From a bacterium A37T11 (GTDB taxonomy: Bacteria; Bacteroidota; Bacteroidia; Sphingobacteriales; Sphingobacteriaceae): a stretch of 64,000 nucleotides of DNA. Every line of letters starts with the position of its first letter. The stretch's first letter is position 1. This document shows positions 6,850 through 52,188 of this stretch, piece after piece. The notes beneath the pieces were generated by a model. The model saw nothing but the letters and a program-made list of their open reading frames with translations, was not told where the DNA came from and made no database searches. The stretch lies in NCBI GenBank assembly GCA_900109895.1, contig FOBR01000009.1, positions 124,001-188,000 on the forward strand, written 5' to 3'. The position numbers were made by a program, and so were the translations under genes.

Positions 6850-7013
6850 AACCCTTAGCCAGCTAAAAAAGGGTAACCAGTTCTTTCTGCAATGAAAGAT
6901 ATTGATCCGTTAAAAAACTCCGAAATAATCTGTTTTGAACCGGGTTTGCTAAATCCGCCTTTACTATCCGTCCATCCATAAGATGGCGGATCCAATATCT
7001 TATCTAATAGCAT
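6850..7013 (-). pseudogene. Frameshifted 5' part of the desaturase gene
   Basis: An ATG at 7013 opens a frame reading MLLDKILDPPSYGW, then a segment rich in Gly, Lys and Ser ending SEFFN, typical of the N terminus of Bacteroidota acyl-CoA desaturases. It runs out of frame at about 6910 and stops at 6855. The downstream frame takes over with NIFHCRKNWL. Adding one base near 6909 (for example AACCGG in place of AACGG on the minus strand) joins the two into about 341 residues, reading FFN-R-I-NIF across the junction. The shift is not at the nearby run of six T, because lengthening or shortening that run creates a stop. Confidence 0.6.
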
Positions 7014-7233
7014 AACAAAAATTTAGCGGGTAAGGTAGGTATAAATTGGATTAAATTGCTTTTTTTATAATAGGCAAAACCCTGTTTTTGCCGGGGCTTT
7101 ACTTTCTAAGAGGGCTTGCCTAAAATGTTAACCTCTGAATTTTAAATAAATACCCATTACGACAAAGAAGAGCAATATCACAGACCAAGCCCCAACTGAT
7201 TTACTTCAAAAACGCTCCCTAATTTTTGTTCGT
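7014..7233. other. Intergenic stretch without a clear gene
   Basis: Upstream of the desaturase start. It contains a short inverted repeat, GGCAAAA/TTTTGCC (about 7073-7092), without a convincing T-tract. A 25-codon open stretch on the minus strand (about 7128-7204) would encode one hydrophobic helix, but it has no good start. No consensus promoter for the desaturase was found here. Confidence 0.5.
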
Positions 7234-7563
7234 TCAACTCCCGATTTTTTGCGCTTGCTTTTCTACCGTAACCCGTTGAAGGGTGAAATTAACATTGCTA
7301 TTGATCTGTGAACTATCCCGGCTTTGACTTTGTTTCCGAATGCGAAGCTTTATCCATACCGTGTCGTCATACCCCTTAAAGCCACTGTCTGGCAGGAAAC
7401 TGAATACCTCTTTTGGAAAGATTTTACAAGTTTCCGTATGGCTATCGTCTGTTTGCAGGTGCACTCCGGTGCGCTGTAGCTGTAAGGTGTCCAATTTATG
7501 GTTGCTTTTGTTGCCACTACCGCGTGTGTTGAGCGGTTTGGCCGTGAAGGCGCAAAAAGTCAA
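7234..7563 (-). CDS. Hypothetical small protein, doubtful
   Basis: 109 codons from a TTG immediately downstream of the rhomboid gene. I do not recognise the product. It is polar, rich in Lys, Gln, Thr and Ser, with alternating patterns that could be beta strands (DTLQLQRTGVHLQTDD, GYDDTVWIKLRIRK). The frame stays open upstream into the rhomboid coding region, so no start is well defined. The nearest hydrophobic stretch, LIDFYPLTFC, could be the end of a degraded lipoprotein signal. It may be a real secreted protein with a mis-set start, a pseudogene fragment, or a chance ORF. No promoter was seen. Confidence 0.35.
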   Translation of the reverse strand: MTFCAFTAKPLNTRGSGNKSNHKLDTLQLQRTGVHLQTDDSHTETCKIFPKEVFSFLPDSGFKGYDDTVWIKLRIRKQSQSRDSSQINSNVNFTLQRVTVEKQAQKIGS

Positions 7564-7573
7564 TGGATAAAAA

Positions 7574-9046
7574 TCAATTAGCTTCCTTAGCTTCCTGCAT
7601 AATAGCTTCCAAGCGCTGGCTGTAGTGTAAAATGGTGTCTTTGTTGGGCGTGGCTCCTTGCGCCAGGGCGTCGTAAATGTATTGATAATTGGAAATCCGC
7701 AGATTGCTGTATTTCAGCAATACTTGATTTCGGGCATGCAGCGCTGGTGGCAGTTGCAAGGTATCAACATCCTTTACCAGCTGGATGGCTTCATTCCAAT
7801 AATAGATGCCACGGTTTTTGATCTCTGCCATCACCTCTTCTTTAGAAGCATAAGTGCGCTTATATGAATAAACTTCCATCGCCAGTGCTTCCAACGTGGA
7901 GAACGTTTCCATCCGTTTCTTATACTGATCAATATCATCAGGCAGCTGTTGGAAAAAATAGCCAAACAGTCCTGCCATGAACACCGCTGTGGCTGCAAAG
8001 ATTCCTACTGAAAGATTCCCTGTAGGATTACCTTTCAGCGTGGGATAAAGGGCAAAGCCTAAAACGATGCCTGTCAGCAAGCCGCCCACATGCGCTGCAT
8101 TATCTACCCCGTCATTGGTAAACCCACCCAACAGACTATAGCCGACGAAGATCAATATGCTTCCCATAAAAGACCAACGTAACCTGGCATCAACCAAATT
8201 GGTGCTCAGCAACGCCAGATAGAGGCCATACATACCAAATATTGCTCCAGACGCTCCAATACACACAATAAACTCATTCCAGTAGATGCTTACCATGCTG
8301 CCGGCAATTCCTGCCAACAGATAAGCTGTCAAAAACCTCCACCTGCCCAAAATGGGCTCCAGTACTGCGCCAATATAATAAAGTGCATACATATTAAAGA
8401 CCAGATGAAAAAAACTGGCATGCAGAAAGATACAGGTTAACATACGCCACCACTGCCCGTCCTGCGTTTCTATCCGAAAGTTGGCACCCCAAGCCACCAA
8501 TGTGTCAGCCGTTAGTGTAAAGCCATGCTTTTCACAAATGATCATAAGGGCATATATTAGACTATTCAGCCAGATAAGGAGTGGTGTAATGAAATAGTCT
8601 CCTCCAACAATTAAGAAACTAAAAAGCTCTGTAGTTCCTGTAGGTTTATGGGGCTCCTCATCCAACATTTCATCGTCCTGCTCCAGTTCCTGCATCAACG
8701 CTTTATACCGTTCATCCAGATCGTCTGTTGCCAAGCGTTGCTTTTCATGGTGAAAGGCTTCCATGAACTGTTCTATATTTTGCCGATTCTTTCCACCATC
8801 TATCAGTTGATAACCTTTGCATTGGCTCAATAAGCTGGCCCCCGTATCCCAAACTGTTAAGCTAACCTGCTCACCATCTCTGGCTTCCCGGCTACCTGTG
8901 AAGGCAATGATCGTATCGGCATCGGCAAAAGCAATGTCCCAACCAAGTTGTTTAGCCACCTCCATGGCCATGACCAAAAAATGCGTGGGAGGAATGCCGT
9001 CAAGGGGCATCGCCAAAGAATAATGCGGATTAAGACCAATAGCCAT
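7574..9046 (-). CDS. Rhomboid-family intramembrane serine protease with extra soluble domains
   Basis: 490 residues. The central part (about 150-345) is a rhomboid core with at least six membrane helices. The catalytic serine is S266 in GASGA and the histidine is H319 in NAAHVGG. H214 and N218 in the FLHASFFHLVFN segment match the conserved HxxxN of the family. It should cleave transmembrane substrates within the inner membrane. Unusual are a soluble N-terminal domain of about 120 residues (mixed alpha/beta, no recognised family), an acidic linker at about 107-135, and a helical tail of about 120 residues. The tail is rich in Tyr, Lys and Glu and is probably cytoplasmic. The substrate is unknown. 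Confidence 0.9.
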   Translation of the reverse strand: MAIGLNPHYSLAMPLDGIPPTHFLVMAMEVAKQLGWDIAFADADTIIAFTGSREARDGEQVSLTVWDTGASLLSQCKGYQLIDGGKNRQNIEQFMEAFHHEKQRLATDDLDERYKALMQELEQDDEMLDEEPHKPTGTTELFSFLIVGGDYFITPLLIWLNSLIYALMIICEKHGFTLTADTLVAWGANFRIETQDGQWWRMLTCIFLHASFFHLVFNMYALYYIGAVLEPILGRWRFLTAYLLAGIAGSMVSIYWNEFIVCIGASGAIFGMYGLYLALLSTNLVDARLRWSFMGSILIFVGYSLLGGFTNDGVDNAAHVGGLLTGIVLGFALYPTLKGNPTGNLSVGIFAATAVFMAGLFGYFFQQLPDDIDQYKKRMETFSTLEALAMEVYSYKRTYASKEEVMAEIKNRGIYYWNEAIQLVKDVDTLQLPPALHARNQVLLKYSNLRISNYQYIYDALAQGATPNKDTILHYSQRLEAIMQEAKEAN

Positions 9047-9202: not shown

Positions 9203-10642
9203 CTATTTTTTGGCAGGGCCTTTTTCGGTTTTTGTATGAATTTCTATGACGCCGTTGTTGCCAAGTGAACCATAAGTAGCTACGGCAGATTGATCTTTTA
9301 AAACGTTGATTGACTCGATGGTTTTCGGATCCATTTTGTTCATGGCTTCTTTACTGGCAACTTTCCCGTCGATAATATACAAAGGTTCGTCAGAGGTTAG
9401 GCGGCCGTAACCCCTGACAATTTTCGATGTATCGGAATCTGATTTTACCGATACCGGAGGCCGCCCGATGATGGTAATGACCCCGGTGTCTGATTTGGCC
9501 TCTGCTTTGGTAGTGACCAGGATAACACCATTGGACCCTCTACTGCCGTATATGACAGCAGCATTTTTGTCTTTAAGCACATTGACAGACTCAATTTTTT
9601 TTGGATCGATCGCATCGAGCGTTTTCTGATTAGAAGGCTCGCCATTTAAAATGATCAATGGGTTCTTTCCGTTTTTTTCTTTAATTAGGAAGGTATGTTT
9701 TGCGTTGCTTTTTTTTGCCGGAACACTGTCTTGGGTGAGCGGTACATTGGCTGCAATTTGCTTGTCCTTAGCAGCTTTTGGATGTTCCTGATAGGCCTTA
9801 CTGATGGTAAATACTGACACAAATAACAAGATAACGGGCACCAATAGCAAGTACTTACCCAAATGGAATTGGGACGATTGTTTTTTATTCATCATGATGA
9901 TTCGATTTTTAAGGTTTTTAAAATTAAAATTATTGGCCAACAGGGGCTGATGTGCTGTGAGTGTTCTGAGCAAATTGTATTGATAAGTTTTGGCATCTAA
10001 ACCGCTATTTAGCACACGACGATCCGTAATGAATTCCAGATTTTCGCGGATGGCCTGGCGAAGCAACCAGGCAGCGGGATTAAACCAACCGACGAGCAGC
10101 AGGAACTCTGCCAGCAACACGTCAATGCTGTGCAGTTGCTGTACGTGGATAAATTCATGGCGGAAGATCTCGTGCAGCTCTGCTTCCGCATGTCCGGCCC
10201 TGTGCAAGTAGATCTGCTTCCAAAAAGAAAAGGGGCTAATGGCCTGCCGCGTATTTCGATAGGTATACTGCTGCCATTCATCAGGTGTGGAATGCCGGTG
10301 GATGCGCCGGATGCTGTGCAACTGAACAACCAGCCGGGATGCCATTACCACAAGGGCGATGCCCAAAAGTATTTCAACATAAGGCCACGCAGAAAAAGAA
10401 TGGTCTACTTGAAATGATAAAGAGCTAATTGGCACTCCAGCTGTCGCATGAACGATTTGTTGCCGGGCCCAAAGTGCGCTGAAATCCATAAAAGGATACA
10501 AAAGGGAAAAACCAACAGCAAAGAGCAGGTACCAGCGGTTAAGTTGGTAAAAAGTGATCCGTCGCAGCAAGCCATAATAGCCTGCACAGAACAGCAGCAC
10601 AGCAATGTTCACTTTGAGGAGGTATATGATGGCATCGGGCAC
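9203..10642 (-). CDS. M56 (BlaR1-like) membrane metallopeptidase with two plug-like repeats
   Basis: 479 residues from a GTG at 10642. Counting from that start, there are hydrophobic helices in the first 110 residues, then a zinc protease segment with HEFIH at 162-166 and downstream NLEFITD supplying the third ligand, and one more helix at about 264-285. The periplasmic tail then holds two copies of a TonB-receptor plug-like unit (about 328-379 and 420-471), each with D-P-K-x-I-E-S-[VI]-N-V-L-K-D and a final Y-G-S-x-G-x-N-G-V-I. Partnered with the BlaI-type repressor upstream, it probably senses an envelope signal and triggers repressor cleavage, as BlaR1 does. A TTG start at 10672 would overlap BlaI by 20 nt; the GTG sits 10 nt after the BlaI stop and suits the family better. 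Confidence 0.87.
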   Translation of the reverse strand: MPDAIIYLLKVNIAVLLFCAGYYGLLRRITFYQLNRWYLLFAVGFSLLYPFMDFSALWARQQIVHATAGVPISSLSFQVDHSFSAWPYVEILLGIALVVMASRLVVQLHSIRRIHRHSTPDEWQQYTYRNTRQAISPFSFWKQIYLHRAGHAEAELHEIFRHEFIHVQQLHSIDVLLAEFLLLVGWFNPAAWLLRQAIRENLEFITDRRVLNSGLDAKTYQYNLLRTLTAHQPLLANNFNFKNLKNRIIMMNKKQSSQFHLGKYLLLVPVILLFVSVFTISKAYQEHPKAAKDKQIAANVPLTQDSVPAKKSNAKHTFLIKEKNGKNPLIILNGEPSNQKTLDAIDPKKIESVNVLKDKNAAVIYGSRGSNGVILVTTKAEAKSDTGVITIIGRPPVSVKSDSDTSKIVRGYGRLTSDEPLYIIDGKVASKEAMNKMDPKTIESINVLKDQSAVATYGSLGNNGVIEIHTKTEKGPAKK

Positions 10643-10652
10643 GGCTATTTTT

Positions 10653-11018
10653 TTAATTGTTTTTTTGTTCAATTAATCGGATGATTTCTTTCAACTCATC
10701 GGTACTGATCTTTTCTTCTTTGGCAAAGAAGCTGACCAGGTCTTTGTAGGAGTTCTCAAAGTAATTATTGACAAAACCGTTTATGAACTGTTTTTTATAA
10801 TGCTCCTCAATGATGACGGGTTCATAACGGTAAGAAGTATTGTATTTGACACCCTGTACGTACCCCTTTTTCTCCAGGTTCTTCACGGTGGATGCCAGCG
10901 TAGTATAAGGTACTTTTTGCTCTTCGGGCATGCTGTCCAGCAATTCTTTAATAAAACCACCGTTTTGTCGCCATATTGACTGCATAGCTTCTTCTTCTTG
11001 CTTCGTTAATTTTTCCAT
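10653..11018 (-). CDS. BlaI/MecI-family transcriptional repressor
   Basis: 121 residues. Winged-helix DNA-binding domain (LTKQEEEAMQSIW, PYTTLASTVKNLEKKGYV) followed by a dimerisation region with FVNNYFENSYKDLVSFF. Members repress their own operon and are inactivated by proteolysis through an M56 sensor, here the next gene downstream. The frame opens at 11087, but the ATG at 11018 is chosen because the upstream part lies over the promoter and operator and does not fit the family. Autoregulation is indicated by the palindrome in the promoter spacer (11064-11078). The regulated target beyond this pair is unknown; no beta-lactamase gene is nearby. Confidence 0.92.
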   Translation of the reverse strand: MEKLTKQEEEAMQSIWRQNGGFIKELLDSMPEEQKVPYTTLASTVKNLEKKGYVQGVKYNTSYRYEPVIIEEHYKKQFINGFVNNYFENSYKDLVSFFAKEEKISTDELKEIIRLIEQKNN

Positions 11019-27901: not shown

Positions 27902-29089
27902 ATGGATAACAGTATTTATCTGGACAACAATGCGACCACCCCTTTGGACAAAAGGGCACTGGATGCCATGATGCCTTATTTGACAAACTTTTATGGAAAT
28001 GCCAGCAGTATTAGCCATAAAGCAGGCAGATGGGCGGCTGAAGTGATTGAAACTTCCAGAAAACAGGTGGCAAGGCTTATTGGGGCCATACCTGCTGAAA
28101 TTATTTTTACTTCTGGTGCAACGGAAGCCATTAATATGGTTATTAAAGGTATTTTTAAGCATTACCAGATTAAAGGCAAACACTTTATTACCTGCCAAAC
28201 TGAGCATAAAGCCGTTTTGGAAGTTTTTACATTTTTGGAAAAAGAAGGGGCTGAGGTTACTTACCTCCCTGTAAATAGCCAAGGGCTGTTAAACCTTGAC
28301 GAGTTGGAAGAAGCTATCAGGCCAGATACGGTTATGATAGCACTTATGTATGCTAACAACGAGACAGGCGTGATAAATCCCGTTGCTGAAATAGGGCGTA
28401 TTTGCGAACAGCATGAGGTTCTTTTCTTTTGTGATGCTACCCAGGTTGCAGGAAAAATTCCTATTGACGTAACAAAAGATGGCATTGATCTGCTTTGTTT
28501 AAGTGCTCATAAGTTGTATGGGCCCAAAGGTATCGGCGCGGTATATGTAAAACGCCGCAATAAGCGCATTCAAATAGGACCATTTATTCATGGCGGCGGA
28601 CAAGAAGGTGGCATGCGCGGAGGTACGCTGAATGTACCTGCTATTGCTGGTTTTGGCGAAGCTGCAGCGATAAGCCAAAAGGAAGGGCTGGAAGAAAATA
28701 AGCGCTTAGCTGATTTACGCGACCTGTTAGAAACCAGTATTTTAGCCAATATAACAGCTTGCCACATCAATGGCCAGTCAACTCCCCGACTGCCTAATAC
28801 AAGTAATATTTGCTTCCAATATGTAAAAGGGGAAGAGATTATGGTGAATTTGCCAAACATAGCTTTGGCTGCCGGTTCTGCTTGCACCAGCGGCAAGCGT
28901 GAACCCTCGCATGTGTTATTGGCTATGGGCTTAAGCTTGTCCGATGCCGGATCCTGCCTTCGCTTCAGCTTAGGCCGTTTTACCACAATTGAAGAAATAG
29001 AAGAAGTCATCGCATCCGTAACCCAGGTTGTCATCAAGCTCAGGCAAGAATCGCCCATATGGACCTTGCATCTTCTAAATAAATTATGA
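27902..29089 (+). CDS. Cysteine desulfurase (IscS/NifS family)
   Basis: 395 residues. PLP-dependent aminotransferase class V fold: YLDNNATTPLD at the N terminus, SGATEAINM, the Schiff-base lysine K204 in LSAHKLYGPKG, and the catalytic loop cysteine C328 in AAGSACTSGKREPSHVL. It takes sulfur from cysteine as a persulfide for Fe-S clusters, thiolated tRNA or cofactors. The long loop with SGKREPSHVL is of the class I (IscS/NifS) type. An in-frame codon at 27887 allows a longer form, but MDNSIYLDNNATT at 27902 fits. No iscU or regulator is adjacent, so a tRNA-thiolation role is possible. Confidence 0.93.
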   Translation: MDNSIYLDNNATTPLDKRALDAMMPYLTNFYGNASSISHKAGRWAAEVIETSRKQVARLIGAIPAEIIFTSGATEAINMVIKGIFKHYQIKGKHFITCQTEHKAVLEVFTFLEKEGAEVTYLPVNSQGLLNLDELEEAIRPDTVMIALMYANNETGVINPVAEIGRICEQHEVLFFCDATQVAGKIPIDVTKDGIDLLCLSAHKLYGPKGIGAVYVKRRNKRIQIGPFIHGGGQEGGMRGGTLNVPAIAGFGEAAAISQKEGLEENKRLADLRDLLETSILANITACHINGQSTPRLPNTSNICFQYVKGEEIMVNLPNIALAAGSACTSGKREPSHVLLAMGLSLSDAGSCLRFSLGRFTTIEEIEEVIASVTQVVIKLRQESPIWTLHLLNKL

Positions 29090-29115
29090 GATATAATTAT
29101 AAAAGAACAATGCAG

Positions 29116-29157
29116 TCATTTATAGTTCATCATTCATAAATCATAATTCTTCACTAT
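29116..29157. repeat. Degenerate heptamer tandem repeat, word TCATTCA
   Basis: Consecutive 7-mers TCATTTA, TAGTTCA, TCATTCA, TAAATCA, TAATTCT, TCACTAT in the convergent gap between the cysteine desulfurase and lysA, running over the lysA stop codon. The first five units agree at 19 of 28 compared positions. Confidence 0.6.
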
Positions 29158-30310
29158 AAACATAGCGTATTTCGTCACGAAGGTTGTAATGGGAGGCCAT
29201 GACTTCTCCGTATGCTCCTGTTGTACGGATGGCAATTAAGTCTCCCCGTTTTGTTATCGGCAGGGCAACTTCCTTTCCAAAGCAATCCGTACTTTCGCAA
29301 ATGGGCCCAACAATATCATAGCTTACCTGAGCATCCGTGGGCACTATTGCATCCTGATCTGCGCGTTCTATTTTATGATAGGCCTGATAAAGTGCCGGTC
29401 GCATTAGTTCAGTCATCCCAGCATCTAAAACCAGGAAATTCTTTTTTAACCCATTTTTCACATACAATACCCGACTAATGAGGCTGGCACTTTGTGCCAC
29501 CAACGCCCTTCCTAACTCAAAATGGACTTCCTGTCCTGGCTTGCGATCCAAAAATTGGTTAAAAATTGCAAAATAACCTTCAAAATCAGGAATCTGATCG
29601 CCGTCAGGATTATGGTAATTGACTCCCAGACCCCCGCCTACATTGAGTACGTCCAGGTGATGTCCACGTTCACTAAACCAATTATTGAGTTCATTAACCT
29701 TTACACATAGACTTTTAAATACATTAAGGTCTGTGATCTGGGAGCCGATGTGAAAGTGTATACCTGATAGCCGCAGGGAGGGTGATCGTATAATAACTTC
29801 CAGGCATTCGTTCAGTTCCCACACTTTGATGCCAAATTTGTTTTCATCAAGGCCCGTGGTAATATAATGATGGGTATGGGCATCAACATTTGGATTGATA
29901 CGAAGGGCGATGCGGGCGGTTTTGCCCAGCCCTGCTGCTAAGCCGTTTATTATCTCCAACTCTTGTACCGATTCTACATTGAACGAAAAGATATCCTGTT
30001 CAAGTGCGGCTATAATTTCTTTATCGGCTTTGCCAACGCCGGCAAAAACAATTTTGTCGGATGAAAACCCGGCTTTAAGGGCAGCAAGAACCTCATTGCC
30101 ACTCACACAATCGGCACCAACACCAGCTTGCTGTATGTGGTGCAGCACCCGTTCATTAAAATTGGCTTTCATGGCATAATGCACGTGAAAGCTAAAAGGG
30201 GCTGCTGCCAGTACCGCAGCACGCAGCGTTTTATCCAGCAAAGCCAGATCGTAATAATAAAAAGGGGTTTCCTTTTGGCCAAAGACCTTAATGAGCGTTT
30301 TATTGAACAT
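29141..30310 (-). CDS. lysA: Diaminopimelate decarboxylase
   Basis: 389 residues, fold-type III PLP decarboxylase. It converts meso-diaminopimelate to L-lysine, the last step of lysine synthesis. The PLP lysine is in HYAMKANFN. Other family segments are the GGGLGVNY glycine loop, the HFHIGSQI segment, ICESTDCFG with the active-site cysteine from the partner subunit, and RTTGAYGEVMASHYN at the C terminus. It is followed upstream in the genome by aspartate kinase, the first enzyme of the same pathway, only 20 nt away, so both are probably one transcript. Confidence 0.95.
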   Translation of the reverse strand: MFNKTLIKVFGQKETPFYYYDLALLDKTLRAAVLAAAPFSFHVHYAMKANFNERVLHHIQQAGVGADCVSGNEVLAALKAGFSSDKIVFAGVGKADKEIIAALEQDIFSFNVESVQELEIINGLAAGLGKTARIALRINPNVDAHTHHYITTGLDENKFGIKVWELNECLEVIIRSPSLRLSGIHFHIGSQITDLNVFKSLCVKVNELNNWFSERGHHLDVLNVGGGLGVNYHNPDGDQIPDFEGYFAIFNQFLDRKPGQEVHFELGRALVAQSASLISRVLYVKNGLKKNFLVLDAGMTELMRPALYQAYHKIERADQDAIVPTDAQVSYDIVGPICESTDCFGKEVALPITKRGDLIAIRTTGAYGEVMASHYNLRDEIRYVYSEEL

Positions 30311-30330
30311 TAAAAGTAAAATAAGTAAAA

Positions 30331-31644
30331 TTAAAAAAGACGGTTATGCAGGGACCGCAGGGCTTCCACCTTATCACTGGTTGAAAGCAAAACGGAAATG
30401 TTATAATCGCTGCCGCCATAAGATATCATCCGTAGCGGAATATGTTTAACCGCATCCAGCACCCGGGATGCATATCCATGTTTATGGATACCGAAATCGC
30501 CTACAATGCAAATAATGGTTTGGTCGCTGTCTATGCTGACGGTTCCAAAATCAAGCAATTCAGCTTCAATATCTTTTAAATTAGTGGTATCGTCAATACT
30601 TAATGATACAGCCACTTCCGAAGTGGTGATCATGTCAATAGGCGTTTTATACCGCTCAAATACCTCAAATACGCGTCGCAAAAAGCCATATGCCAGCAGC
30701 ATCCGTGACGACTGTATGCGGATGGCTGTAATGCCGTCTTTTGCGGCAATGGAGGTTACCTGATCCTGGTGTTGGGCTACCTCACTGATCAAAGTGCCCG
30801 GCGCCTGCGGATCCATGGTATTCAGCAAGCGTACGGGAATATTGTAACGCTGCGCAGGGAACACGCTTTGCGGATGCAGGATCTTGGCTCCAAAATAAGC
30901 CAATTCTGCGGCTTCATTAAAGGTCAGGTTGGCAATGGGCCGGGTGCCTTTTACAATGCGTGGGTCGTTATTATGCATCCCGTCAATATCTGTCCAGATT
31001 TGTACTTCTTCGGCCCGGATGGCTGCACCAATCAGTGATGCGGTATAATCACTGCCTCCCCGACGCAGGTTATCAATCTCACCAAAGGCATTCCGGCAAA
31101 TATAGCCCTGCGTAATAAACAAATTATGGTCAGATGCTGCAAGTACTAGATCTTTCAGGTGCTTTCCAATGAAATCAATAAGGGGTTCATTGTCTTCATC
31201 AATTTTCATAAAATCAAGCGCCGGCAAAAGCTTTGAACGGACACCAATCTCGGTGAGGTAAAAATGATAAAGGGTGGTGGAAATAAGCTCGCCCTGAGCC
31301 AGAATGATCTTTTCTTCGATCGGTGAAAAGATACTGGTATTAAAGGAACGGATAAGATCAAAGTGGTAGTCAATAAGCTCCTGCCCATTACTCCGGCCTT
31401 CTTCAGTAGTAAAAAGTTCCTGAATAAATTGTTTATAACCTTCATGAAGGTGCTTAATCAGTTTTTCAGCCAGGAGCTTATCTCCAACACTTAAAGCACG
31501 GGATATTTCAACTAAGCTATTGGTGGTGCCTGATACGGCCGACAACACAACGATCTGCCGTTCTTCGGGCTGTATGATATCCAACAATTTTTTCATTCGT
31601 TCGGGACTGCCTACCGACGTACCCCCGAATTTAAGAACCTTCAT
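30331..31644 (-). CDS. lysC: Aspartate kinase
   Basis: 437 residues. It phosphorylates aspartate to start the lysine/threonine/methionine pathway. KFGGTSVG at the N terminus is the kinase signature, with RGGSDYTASLIGAA and EVQIWTDIDGM further on. Two ACT-like regulatory segments follow (about 295-435), the likely site of feedback by end products. The frame opens at 31683, inside the serA terminator hairpin, so the ATG at 31644 (MKVLKFGGTSVG) is used. It is the upstream partner of lysA. No homoserine dehydrogenase domain is fused. Confidence 0.94.
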   Translation of the reverse strand: MKVLKFGGTSVGSPERMKKLLDIIQPEERQIVVLSAVSGTTNSLVEISRALSVGDKLLAEKLIKHLHEGYKQFIQELFTTEEGRSNGQELIDYHFDLIRSFNTSIFSPIEEKIILAQGELISTTLYHFYLTEIGVRSKLLPALDFMKIDEDNEPLIDFIGKHLKDLVLAASDHNLFITQGYICRNAFGEIDNLRRGGSDYTASLIGAAIRAEEVQIWTDIDGMHNNDPRIVKGTRPIANLTFNEAAELAYFGAKILHPQSVFPAQRYNIPVRLLNTMDPQAPGTLISEVAQHQDQVTSIAAKDGITAIRIQSSRMLLAYGFLRRVFEVFERYKTPIDMITTSEVAVSLSIDDTTNLKDIEAELLDFGTVSIDSDQTIICIVGDFGIHKHGYASRVLDAVKHIPLRMISYGGSDYNISVLLSTSDKVEALRSLHNRLF

Positions 31645-49926: not shown

Positions 49927-49953
49927 CAAGGTGCCGGATGGGACGGCACCTTG
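49927..49953 (-). terminator. Intrinsic terminator after the SusD-like gene
   Basis: Perfect 10-bp stem CAAGGTGCCG/CGGCACCTTG with a 7-nt loop, 34 nt past the stop of the SusD-like gene. On the minus strand it is followed by TTTTGTTTA. The same tail follows the rpsO terminator. Confidence 0.85.
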
Positions 49954-49986: not shown

Positions 49987-52152
49987 CTAATAACCGGCGT
50001 GCTGCTGTATGCCGGGATAAAGTGCTATAATTCCTGAAGGAATGGGCATCAAGCCTTTATAGCCTTGATAGCCGAGCGGACCAAGCATGCTTTCGGCCGT
50101 ACCCCAGCGAATCAGGCTGGAGAAACGACTGCCTTCACGATACAATTCCCGCTTCCATACCTCTTGAAGTTTCGACTTCAGTGCAACTTGGTTACTGCCA
50201 GACCCCACCTGGCTTACCCCGCGACGCACGCAAAGTGTATTGAGTGTTTGGGTTGCCTGCGCCAAGTTTCCCGTTTCAATGGACGCTTCGGCATACATGA
50301 GCAGTGCTTCAGAATAGCGGATAGCCGGGGTAAAAGCCCTGCCTGTAAAATAAGTCGGAACTTCATTCGCACTCTGCCCATATATCCGGTTCCAAATAAC
50401 CTCGGCATTCGTGGCATTGCTTTTTAGTTGTGAGGTGTCGCCTACAAGCATATACCGACTACTATTGATCAACTGCCCACAAACTTCCAATACCTTCTCA
50501 TACTTTTTCTGGTGCAATGCCGCCCTAGCCAATACAACGCGTGCCGCATCAGCACTCAGCCCCACTCCGGTCATCTGCTTATCAACCAATACCGGAATTA
50601 CTGCATCAACATCAGCTTTAATTAAATTATAAATGGCCTCCGTGCTACTGTTCACTACATTTTCAGGAAAATCTATATTATCTAAAATGGGCGCCTCGCC
50701 ATAAAAATTTAACAAACTGGCATAGACTACCGCTCTGGCGGCTTTTAGTACTGCTAGGACCTCATCCTTACTTCCCGCAGGAAAGTGGTTAGGAACACTG
50801 GTCAGTTCAGGCACATTAGGGCCTGACAGAATTAATCGGTTTAACCTGCTTAGCAGATCATAATGGCTATTCCAAAGTCCTGAAAAGTTAACGGGACTAT
50901 AAGCGTAACGATCGGCATCACATAAGCTAAGCCCTAAAGACAAGCCGTTCATATTAATATTAGTGCACGTAGCCTCATCGCTTAAAACCCCGTCAAGCAC
51001 TATCCAACGTGCATTTGTATTAAAAACATCGTAATAAACTACTTCGGCCAAATTGCAAAATTCAACCGCACTGGTTATCGGAAGTACACTATGATTGTTC
51101 GGCAGCCCAATGATCAGGTCAACCGACTTATTGTCGCTACCTTCTATTTCAGCGCTGTTATAAGGTAAATATAATTGATCCTTGTTGTCGATCACACCAT
51201 CTGCATTTGCATCCACTGGTTTAAAATTGCCTACCATTGCGTAGCCGACCGGTGTATTCGTGGCAAGTTCCACCACTTCTTGCTCGTTTTGAATCAAGCT
51301 CTCAGCTCCTAAACCTATCAATTTTCCATCTGACCCCGTCTTTTTATCAAAAATGCTGCTTAATACACGGATGCCTTCTTTGTGTCCAACCAAATAATAC
51401 GTACCCGGAAAAAATCGGTTAAATACGGCTTTTCCCGAAGCATCTGTCTGGGCAGTATAGGCTACGTGTCCTGCGCTAAAATCATCTGTGGATAAATACA
51501 CGTCTACGGTGGCCCCCTCCAACAACTCCCCTTTTGGTTTGTTCGTTGCCCATTTGGTAGCATCATATACATTTACAGTCAGGGTACCAGGAGCAGCCGC
51601 CACACTGCCTGTTAAGCTTTTGCTCAGCACATGCACTACATCGTGTTCGCCGGAAGCCCATGTTTTATTGGTGATTTCCACCCCATTTATAAAGATATTA
51701 GTATCAGCCACGTATACCAGCAGCTGTTTCCCGCTAAGCGTTGTAAATGTTTTGCCATTTACCAAATCACTGATCTTTATCAATCCTTTCAACAAATGGT
51801 CCTTAATATTAAAAGAGGTGTTTTCGGAAGCCGCTGTTTGCGATACAGCCATCTTCTGGCCCTTTAAATGCGTTTTCGCTACGGTCTTGTTGGCAACCAG
51901 TTCCTCATCAGGAACGGCAAAGATGGTGAGGCCTTCAGAAACTTCTGCATCACTCAAATCAGCATCCTGCAAAGCATCGCTAAAAGTTGCTAAACTAGCT
52001 GATTTGGATAATGAACTCACAATTCCAGGCAATACATCTTCAACTGTAACCTGTGGTTCAGTGTTTTTCTTGTCTTTTTTGCAACTGCCTAAAAAAAACA
52101 GCATGCACCCCGCAAATAATACATGAACGGTAAATTTGTAATTAATTTTCAT
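49987..52152 (-). CDS. SusD/RagB-like lipoprotein with fasciclin and Ca-binding-type segments
   Basis: 721 residues. Lipoprotein signal with lipidated C24 (LGSC). A FAS1 (fasciclin) domain occupies about 55-180, with LTIFAVPDEEL and the closing GEHDVVHVLSKSL. A Cna-B/carboxypeptidase-regulatory-like sandwich lies at about 190-265 and a dockerin/EF-hand-like DANADGVIDNKD at 314-325. A SusD/RagB helical domain runs from about 420 to the end, finishing LMPIPSGIIALYPGIQQHAGY-like. SusD proteins sit on the outer surface and bind glycans or peptides for a SusC channel. No SusC gene is adjacent and the SusD part is shorter than the typical about 500 residues. The FAS1 part suggests adhesion. Expressed from a good promoter that ends 4 nt before the ATG. 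Confidence 0.88.
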   Translation of the reverse strand: MKINYKFTVHVLFAGCMLFFLGSCKKDKKNTEPQVTVEDVLPGIVSSLSKSASLATFSDALQDADLSDAEVSEGLTIFAVPDEELVANKTVAKTHLKGQKMAVSQTAASENTSFNIKDHLLKGLIKISDLVNGKTFTTLSGKQLLVYVADTNIFINGVEITNKTWASGEHDVVHVLSKSLTGSVAAAPGTLTVNVYDATKWATNKPKGELLEGATVDVYLSTDDFSAGHVAYTAQTDASGKAVFNRFFPGTYYLVGHKEGIRVLSSIFDKKTGSDGKLIGLGAESLIQNEQEVVELATNTPVGYAMVGNFKPVDANADGVIDNKDQLYLPYNSAEIEGSDNKSVDLIIGLPNNHSVLPITSAVEFCNLAEVVYYDVFNTNARWIVLDGVLSDEATCTNINMNGLSLGLSLCDADRYAYSPVNFSGLWNSHYDLLSRLNRLILSGPNVPELTSVPNHFPAGSKDEVLAVLKAARAVVYASLLNFYGEAPILDNIDFPENVVNSSTEAIYNLIKADVDAVIPVLVDKQMTGVGLSADAARVVLARAALHQKKYEKVLEVCGQLINSSRYMLVGDTSQLKSNATNAEVIWNRIYGQSANEVPTYFTGRAFTPAIRYSEALLMYAEASIETGNLAQATQTLNTLCVRRGVSQVGSGSNQVALKSKLQEVWKRELYREGSRFSSLIRWGTAESMLGPLGYQGYKGLMPIPSGIIALYPGIQQHAGY

Positions 52153-52156
52153 ATTG

Positions 52157-52188
52157 CAAAGGTAGTGCAGGTATAATCACCAACACAA
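52157..52188 (-). promoter_or_regulatory. Promoter of the SusD-like gene, 4 nt from the ATG
   Basis: Minus strand TACCTTTG at 52157-52164 with TTG at 52186-52188, 21 bp upstream. Only CAAT separates the box from the ATG at 52152, implying an mRNA with no leader. Confidence 0.7.

Follow-up and report, generated by a model that had tools for sequence, protein, structure and literature searches.

A predicted lipoprotein combining FAS1, a SusC-like calcium-loop segment and an internally shortened SusD fold, with no SusC gene nearby

In the window, the 64-kb stretch of Sphingobacteriaceae DNA analysed here, we found a gene on the minus strand whose 721-amino-acid product carries, in this order, FAS1, a CnaB-like domain, a SusC-L9-like calcium segment and a shortened SusD. 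The features of the locus are as follows.

49987..52152, minus strand: lipoprotein gene, 721 aa (open reading frame; Pfam; full-length homologues with the same order)
52081..52152, minus strand: signal peptide and lipobox (LGSC then KKDK), Cys24 (sequence)
51613..51993, minus strand: FAS1 (fasciclin) domain, residues 54-180 (Pfam PF02469, E = 2.8e-8)
51379..51597, minus strand: Cna-B/SpaA-like β-sandwich, residues ~186-258 (weak Pfam matches; strands in the model)
51169..51327, minus strand: SusC extracellular-loop homologue, probably L9, residues ~276-328 (PDB, own-genome and phylum-wide profile matches)
51178..51213, minus strand: EF-hand/dockerin-like calcium-type loop DANADGVIDNKD, residues 314-325 (invariant positions)
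49990..51087, minus strand: SusD fold, N- and C-terminal halves both present, residues 356-721 (Foldseek/VIA; PF07980 and PF14322)
50335..50427, minus strand: shortened TPR3-TPR4 linker, ~31 aa (profiles of the N- and C-parts)
49927..49953, minus strand: intrinsic terminator, 10-pair stem with 7 G-C pairs and a T tail (sequence)

A preliminary description of this DNA had already read a lipobox, a FAS1 domain, a Cna-B-like sandwich, a calcium loop and a SusD part on one chain, and the single open reading frame does hold all of them. Cys24 of the LGSC lipobox is likely the lipid anchor, and each of the 12 proteins examined has CKK or CNK at the start of its mature chain. The charged residues that follow this cysteine hint at export. 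The gene is bordered by a divergent lipocalin-like gene, an RluA-type pseudouridine synthase and an alpha-L-fucosidase, with the strong terminator separating it from the pseudouridine synthase gene. The Bacteroidota -7 box reads TAnnTTTG. The sequence TACCTTTG at 52157-52164 on the minus strand, 4 bases 5' of the ATG, fits this box and would imply a near-leaderless transcript, or else the match is due to chance.

We utilized AlphaFold with a nine-sequence alignment to predict the structure of the protein. Confidence in the model was intermediate overall (mean pLDDT 60.8) and poor in FAS1 and the loop segment; the N-terminal part predicted without an alignment reached a pLDDT of only 31.9. The structure-based (VIA) comparison covers the SusD rows; the FAS1 and CnaB assignments come from sequence profiles and, for CnaB, also from strands in the model. 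FAS1 scored 34.4 bits against a cut-off of 22, confirming the earlier assignment, and a family profile built from seven relatives also matched the FAS1 proteins periostin and TGFBI in the PDB. The Cna-B-like sandwich held up in part: SpaA/CarboxypepD_reg matches at residues 206-256 fell below the Pfam cut-off in the window protein itself, but weak matches to the SpaA, CarboxypepD_reg and SdrD_B folds recurred in 10-11 of the 12 family members. As a separate idea, we considered an origin of the sandwich from the SusC N-terminal extension and rejected it, as no similarity appeared in a small SusC set (0.2 bits).

The SusD portion showed a complete fold with an internal deletion. SusD_RagB (PF07980) matched residues 580-691 well above its curated cut-off (E = 1.2e-14; 55.1 bits versus 23.1), and SusD-like_3 gave a weak, sub-threshold match at residues 406-544. 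The predicted model aligned with whole SusD structures over residues 356-721 (VIA Z ~20-24.1, ~330-350 residues aligned), which argues that the SusD part is a whole fold with its TPR core, shortened internally. The preliminary description had seen only a shortened C-terminal half, a reading that the presence of both halves overturns; an ordinary SusD fold over the entire chain, which would have spoken against that description, was not seen, since the fold is confined to 356-721. The seven-relative profile hit solved SusDs in two stretches flanking a missing region. Measured as the stretch between separate profiles of the SusD N- and C-parts, the TPR3-TPR4 region spans 27-31 aa in each of the nine members compared, versus 84-251 aa in the SusDs of the same genome (median 159 aa, confident matches). 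The window protein thus lacks the loop-rich TPR3-TPR4 stretch with the glycan site. In BT_3984 the region between TPR3 and TPR4 is loop-rich and adjoins the sugar site (PMC2954216), other SusDs carry glycan-binding Trp residues in this area, and in BT1762-63 the hinge 2 loop of SusC stabilises a loop there (PMC9599597). The protein retains the core conserved among SusDs, together with the LPIP...QNPGY motif at its C-terminal end. When 44 SusD domains were compared, those of the family grouped as a single clade (support 100/98), showing their shared ancestry.

We next turn to the calcium-loop segment. The motif named in the preliminary description is present as DANADGVIDNKD at residues 314-325. 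Its consensus is D-x-N-x-D-(G)-x-(I/V)-x-x-x-D, in which the four Asp/Asn positions D314, N316, D318 and D325 are invariant. The loop would bind calcium. It does not amount to a dockerin type I domain: there is a single loop, and Dockerin_1 matched weakly in 4 of 12 members. We built a profile from residues 258-352 of 12 relatives and searched the bacterium's own genome with it. Besides the gene itself it returned 51 matches (best E = 5.4e-13): 48 lay in open reading frames of 956-1207 aa and two in frames of 655 and 628 aa resembling split SusC genes, which makes about 50 SusCs, and one, weak, lay in a 497-aa SusD frame. The top three PDB hits were SusC homologues, including 8aa4_A (E = 3.2e-10) and residues 825-874 of BT1763 (E = 2.1e-8). 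Across 345 genomes of the phylum, the non-self matches fell in frames of 949-1229 aa (best E = 4.7e-17), with one exception in a 674-aa frame at a contig start. The 28 matches that we inspected all sit at one position in SusC, stopping 161-182 residues short of its C-terminus. When sub-segments were tested against shuffles, the stretch preceding the calcium loop by itself reached 9.7 and 9.5 bits at the SusC position next to it, and the best of 380 shuffles reached 2.0 bits; neither the Cna-B part nor the post-loop part gave a signal against SusC. The segment is thus homologous to SusC and no chance EF-hand-like motif, an origin that the preliminary description overlooked. With strands counted by eye in these sequences, backwards from the SusC C-terminus, its SusC counterpart is probably the extracellular loop L9. 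Published work describes L9 as a docking site of surface lipoproteins: it contacts the surface GH of the levan utilisome and the SGBP of the dextran utilisome (PMC7618045). Elsewhere in the same genome, beyond the window, two SusC genes are apparently split into two open reading frames each (contig C11, ~113387-115331; contig C16, ~28681-30649).

We then analysed the relation of this gene to SusC genes. In the same genome, which holds at least 56 full SusCs and at least 150 SusC signatures, 129 of 141 SusD_RagB matches have a SusC signature 3.0-4.5 kb upstream on their own strand, the signatures being the best 150 of 201 candidates. We read the remaining 12 in the DNA: ten have a SusC upstream, one has a SusC downstream in the same locus, and the window gene, SusC-free within ~5 kb, is the sole exception among the 141. 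Pfam found no SusC among the long open reading frames of the window, and the nearest signature among the best 150 of 201 is 41 kb away in an M56-peptidase/Plug protein. That protein (9203-10672) is a predicted membrane-protease/Plug chimera, an M56 (BlaR1-type) peptidase that also matches the TonB Plug and, twice, the SusC signature. FAS1 lipoprotein genes directly follow SusD in three SusC-SusD operons of this genome (locus L102, 3911-5032 and 10896-11633; locus L103, 2422-3105), so the fusion unites parts already found there as neighbours. Two other loci, L104 and L105 on contig C15 of this genome, hold FAS1 lipoprotein clusters with a SusC-length open reading frame and IPT/TIG-type lipoproteins; the L104 cluster has no evident SusD.

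To place the gene among its relatives, we compared full-length homologues with the same order, which share 29-36% identity and occur in Parapedobacter indicus, P. luteus, Pedobacter panaciterrae O48, an Anseongella MAG and two further Sphingobacteriaceae genomes. The homologues are patchy and lie within this one family: at E 1e-30 they turned up in 8 of the 301 genomes sampled from it, and an order sample gave 14 of 400, or ~3-4%. A class-wide sample of 395 genomes, with the best two candidates per genome scored, returned only the gene itself, and a contig scan with the window protein alone as query found no relative. Each of the FAS1, Cna-B/L9 and SusD modules is absent from some relatives. 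One variant (L020) is without FAS1, the Desertivirga variant (L022/L043) is without CnaB and the calcium-loop segment, and several Pedobacter loci together with L031/L032 keep FAS1-CnaB-loop with SusD absent. In no fused relative does a SusC lie directly beside the gene, so the orphan status claimed in the preliminary description stands, and a SusC partner fixed in the operon across relatives, which it had named as the contrary case, was not found. The L020 locus has a SusC-like open reading frame beginning ~6 kb away, and some SusD-less Pedobacter loci have SusC/SusD genes a few kb off. Parapedobacter koreensis has a broken remnant (L044, ~7001-8116) at the position of the intact P. luteus gene (L037); together with the patchy distribution, this indicates that the gene is dispensable. 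The SusD-less relatives show dN/dS of 0.10-0.23, indicating purifying selection.

Several explanations were weighed for these observations. The protein may be a plain surface adhesin or glycan/matrix binder in which the calcium segment is a folding element and the SusD alone binds the ligand. Such a binder would suit the FAS1 and Cna-B-type domains, modules typical of adhesion, and the lack of a SusC beside the fused relatives; isolated SusD homologues can bind polymers (PMC11267923). However, the usual glycan-site stretch of SusD is missing, and the takeover of a SusC loop and its retention in most relatives, even SusD-less ones, are left unexplained; we regard this explanation as rather unlikely. 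The adhesin without uptake proposed in the preliminary description agrees with the orphan status but overlooked both the SusC-loop homology and the glycan-site deletion. Given these two features, a role in docking or as a scaffold is no less likely than simple ligand binding.

Another explanation is that the protein serves in trans the SusCs encoded elsewhere in its genome, as a mini-lid or a competitor of ordinary SusDs, docking through its retained TPR and C-terminal face. Conserved SusD faces have been proposed as the SusC interface (PMC2954216); with the core and the C-terminal motif kept, the protein could still bind a SusC elsewhere, and the genome offers many of them. Yet every other SusD found in this genome sits with a SusC. 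In SusCD the segment following the SusD lipid anchor is the lid pivot (PMC7782687), unlike the window protein, where ~330 residues intervene after the anchor, and by our reading the hinge-2-stabilised loop area of BT1762-63 (PMC9599597) falls within the deleted stretch. We consider a partnership in trans doubtful. It is far less probable that the gene is a relic, a neutral chimera assembled from pieces of SusC and SusD and now being lost. Its rarity and the broken P. koreensis copy would suit decay, but the gene is intact in several genera, its calcium-loop residues are invariant, its SusD motifs are kept at ~30% identity and the dN/dS of the SusD-less relatives is low. We also considered a subunit of the Bacteroidota BAM canopy and rejected it, finding no resemblance to the published BamG (FadL-like), BamH (carbohydrate-binding fold) or BamM (PPI fold) (PMC12611786).

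The best explanation, which we hold tentatively and at somewhat less than even confidence, is a surface binding or docking lipoprotein that acts independently of TonB and SusC. The protein would be an outer-membrane lipoprotein, probably surface-exposed and expressed from its own unit. Its FAS1 and Cna-B-like modules may project a platform outward and may bind polymer, matrix or cell surface, and its SusD fold would keep the TPR core as a protein-binding scaffold after losing the usual glycan-site stretch. Its more specific form, a SusC extracellular docking loop transplanted onto a lipoprotein with a stripped SusD lid, is conceivable but unlikely. We infer the surface exposure, the docking partners and the absence of transport from these features, and the protein is probably a binding or docking protein and no importer.

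SusC and SusD are treated as a glycan-importing pair. That a conserved, channel-less lipoprotein combines a SusC loop with a trimmed SusD suggests reuse of Sus components for a task outside import. In the open-access literature we found nothing relevant on FAS1-SusD fusions or SusC-less SusDs. The lipoprotein also offers a soluble test object for the binding partners of L9 and for calcium binding by the loop, both hard to approach on a membrane barrel.

Compared with known systems, the protein resembles the SusD/RagB nutrient-uptake lipoproteins (PF07980/PF14322) in its lipobox, its SusD fold at 356-721 and its C-terminal motif, but adds the N-terminal FAS1, CnaB-like and SusC-loop modules, has its TPR3-TPR4 region cut to ~30 aa and lacks a SusC neighbour. 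With the SusC/RagA TonB-dependent transporters (TIGR04056) it shares ~50 residues around the calcium loop, whose counterpart lies 161-182 residues ahead of the C-terminus of SusC, including the D-x-N-x-D-G segment found near the C-terminal barrel part, whereas it is a lipoprotein without plug, barrel or TonB box. Like the lipoproteins that follow SusD in SusC-SusD operons it bears FAS1, but here FAS1 is joined with SusD on a single chain, and the gene lies outside such operons. Its likeness to the utilisome accessory lipoproteins (SGBP, SusE-type, surface GH) is a functional analogy only, as surface lipoproteins working with Sus components; those dock on SusC loops, whereas the window protein carries such a loop itself.
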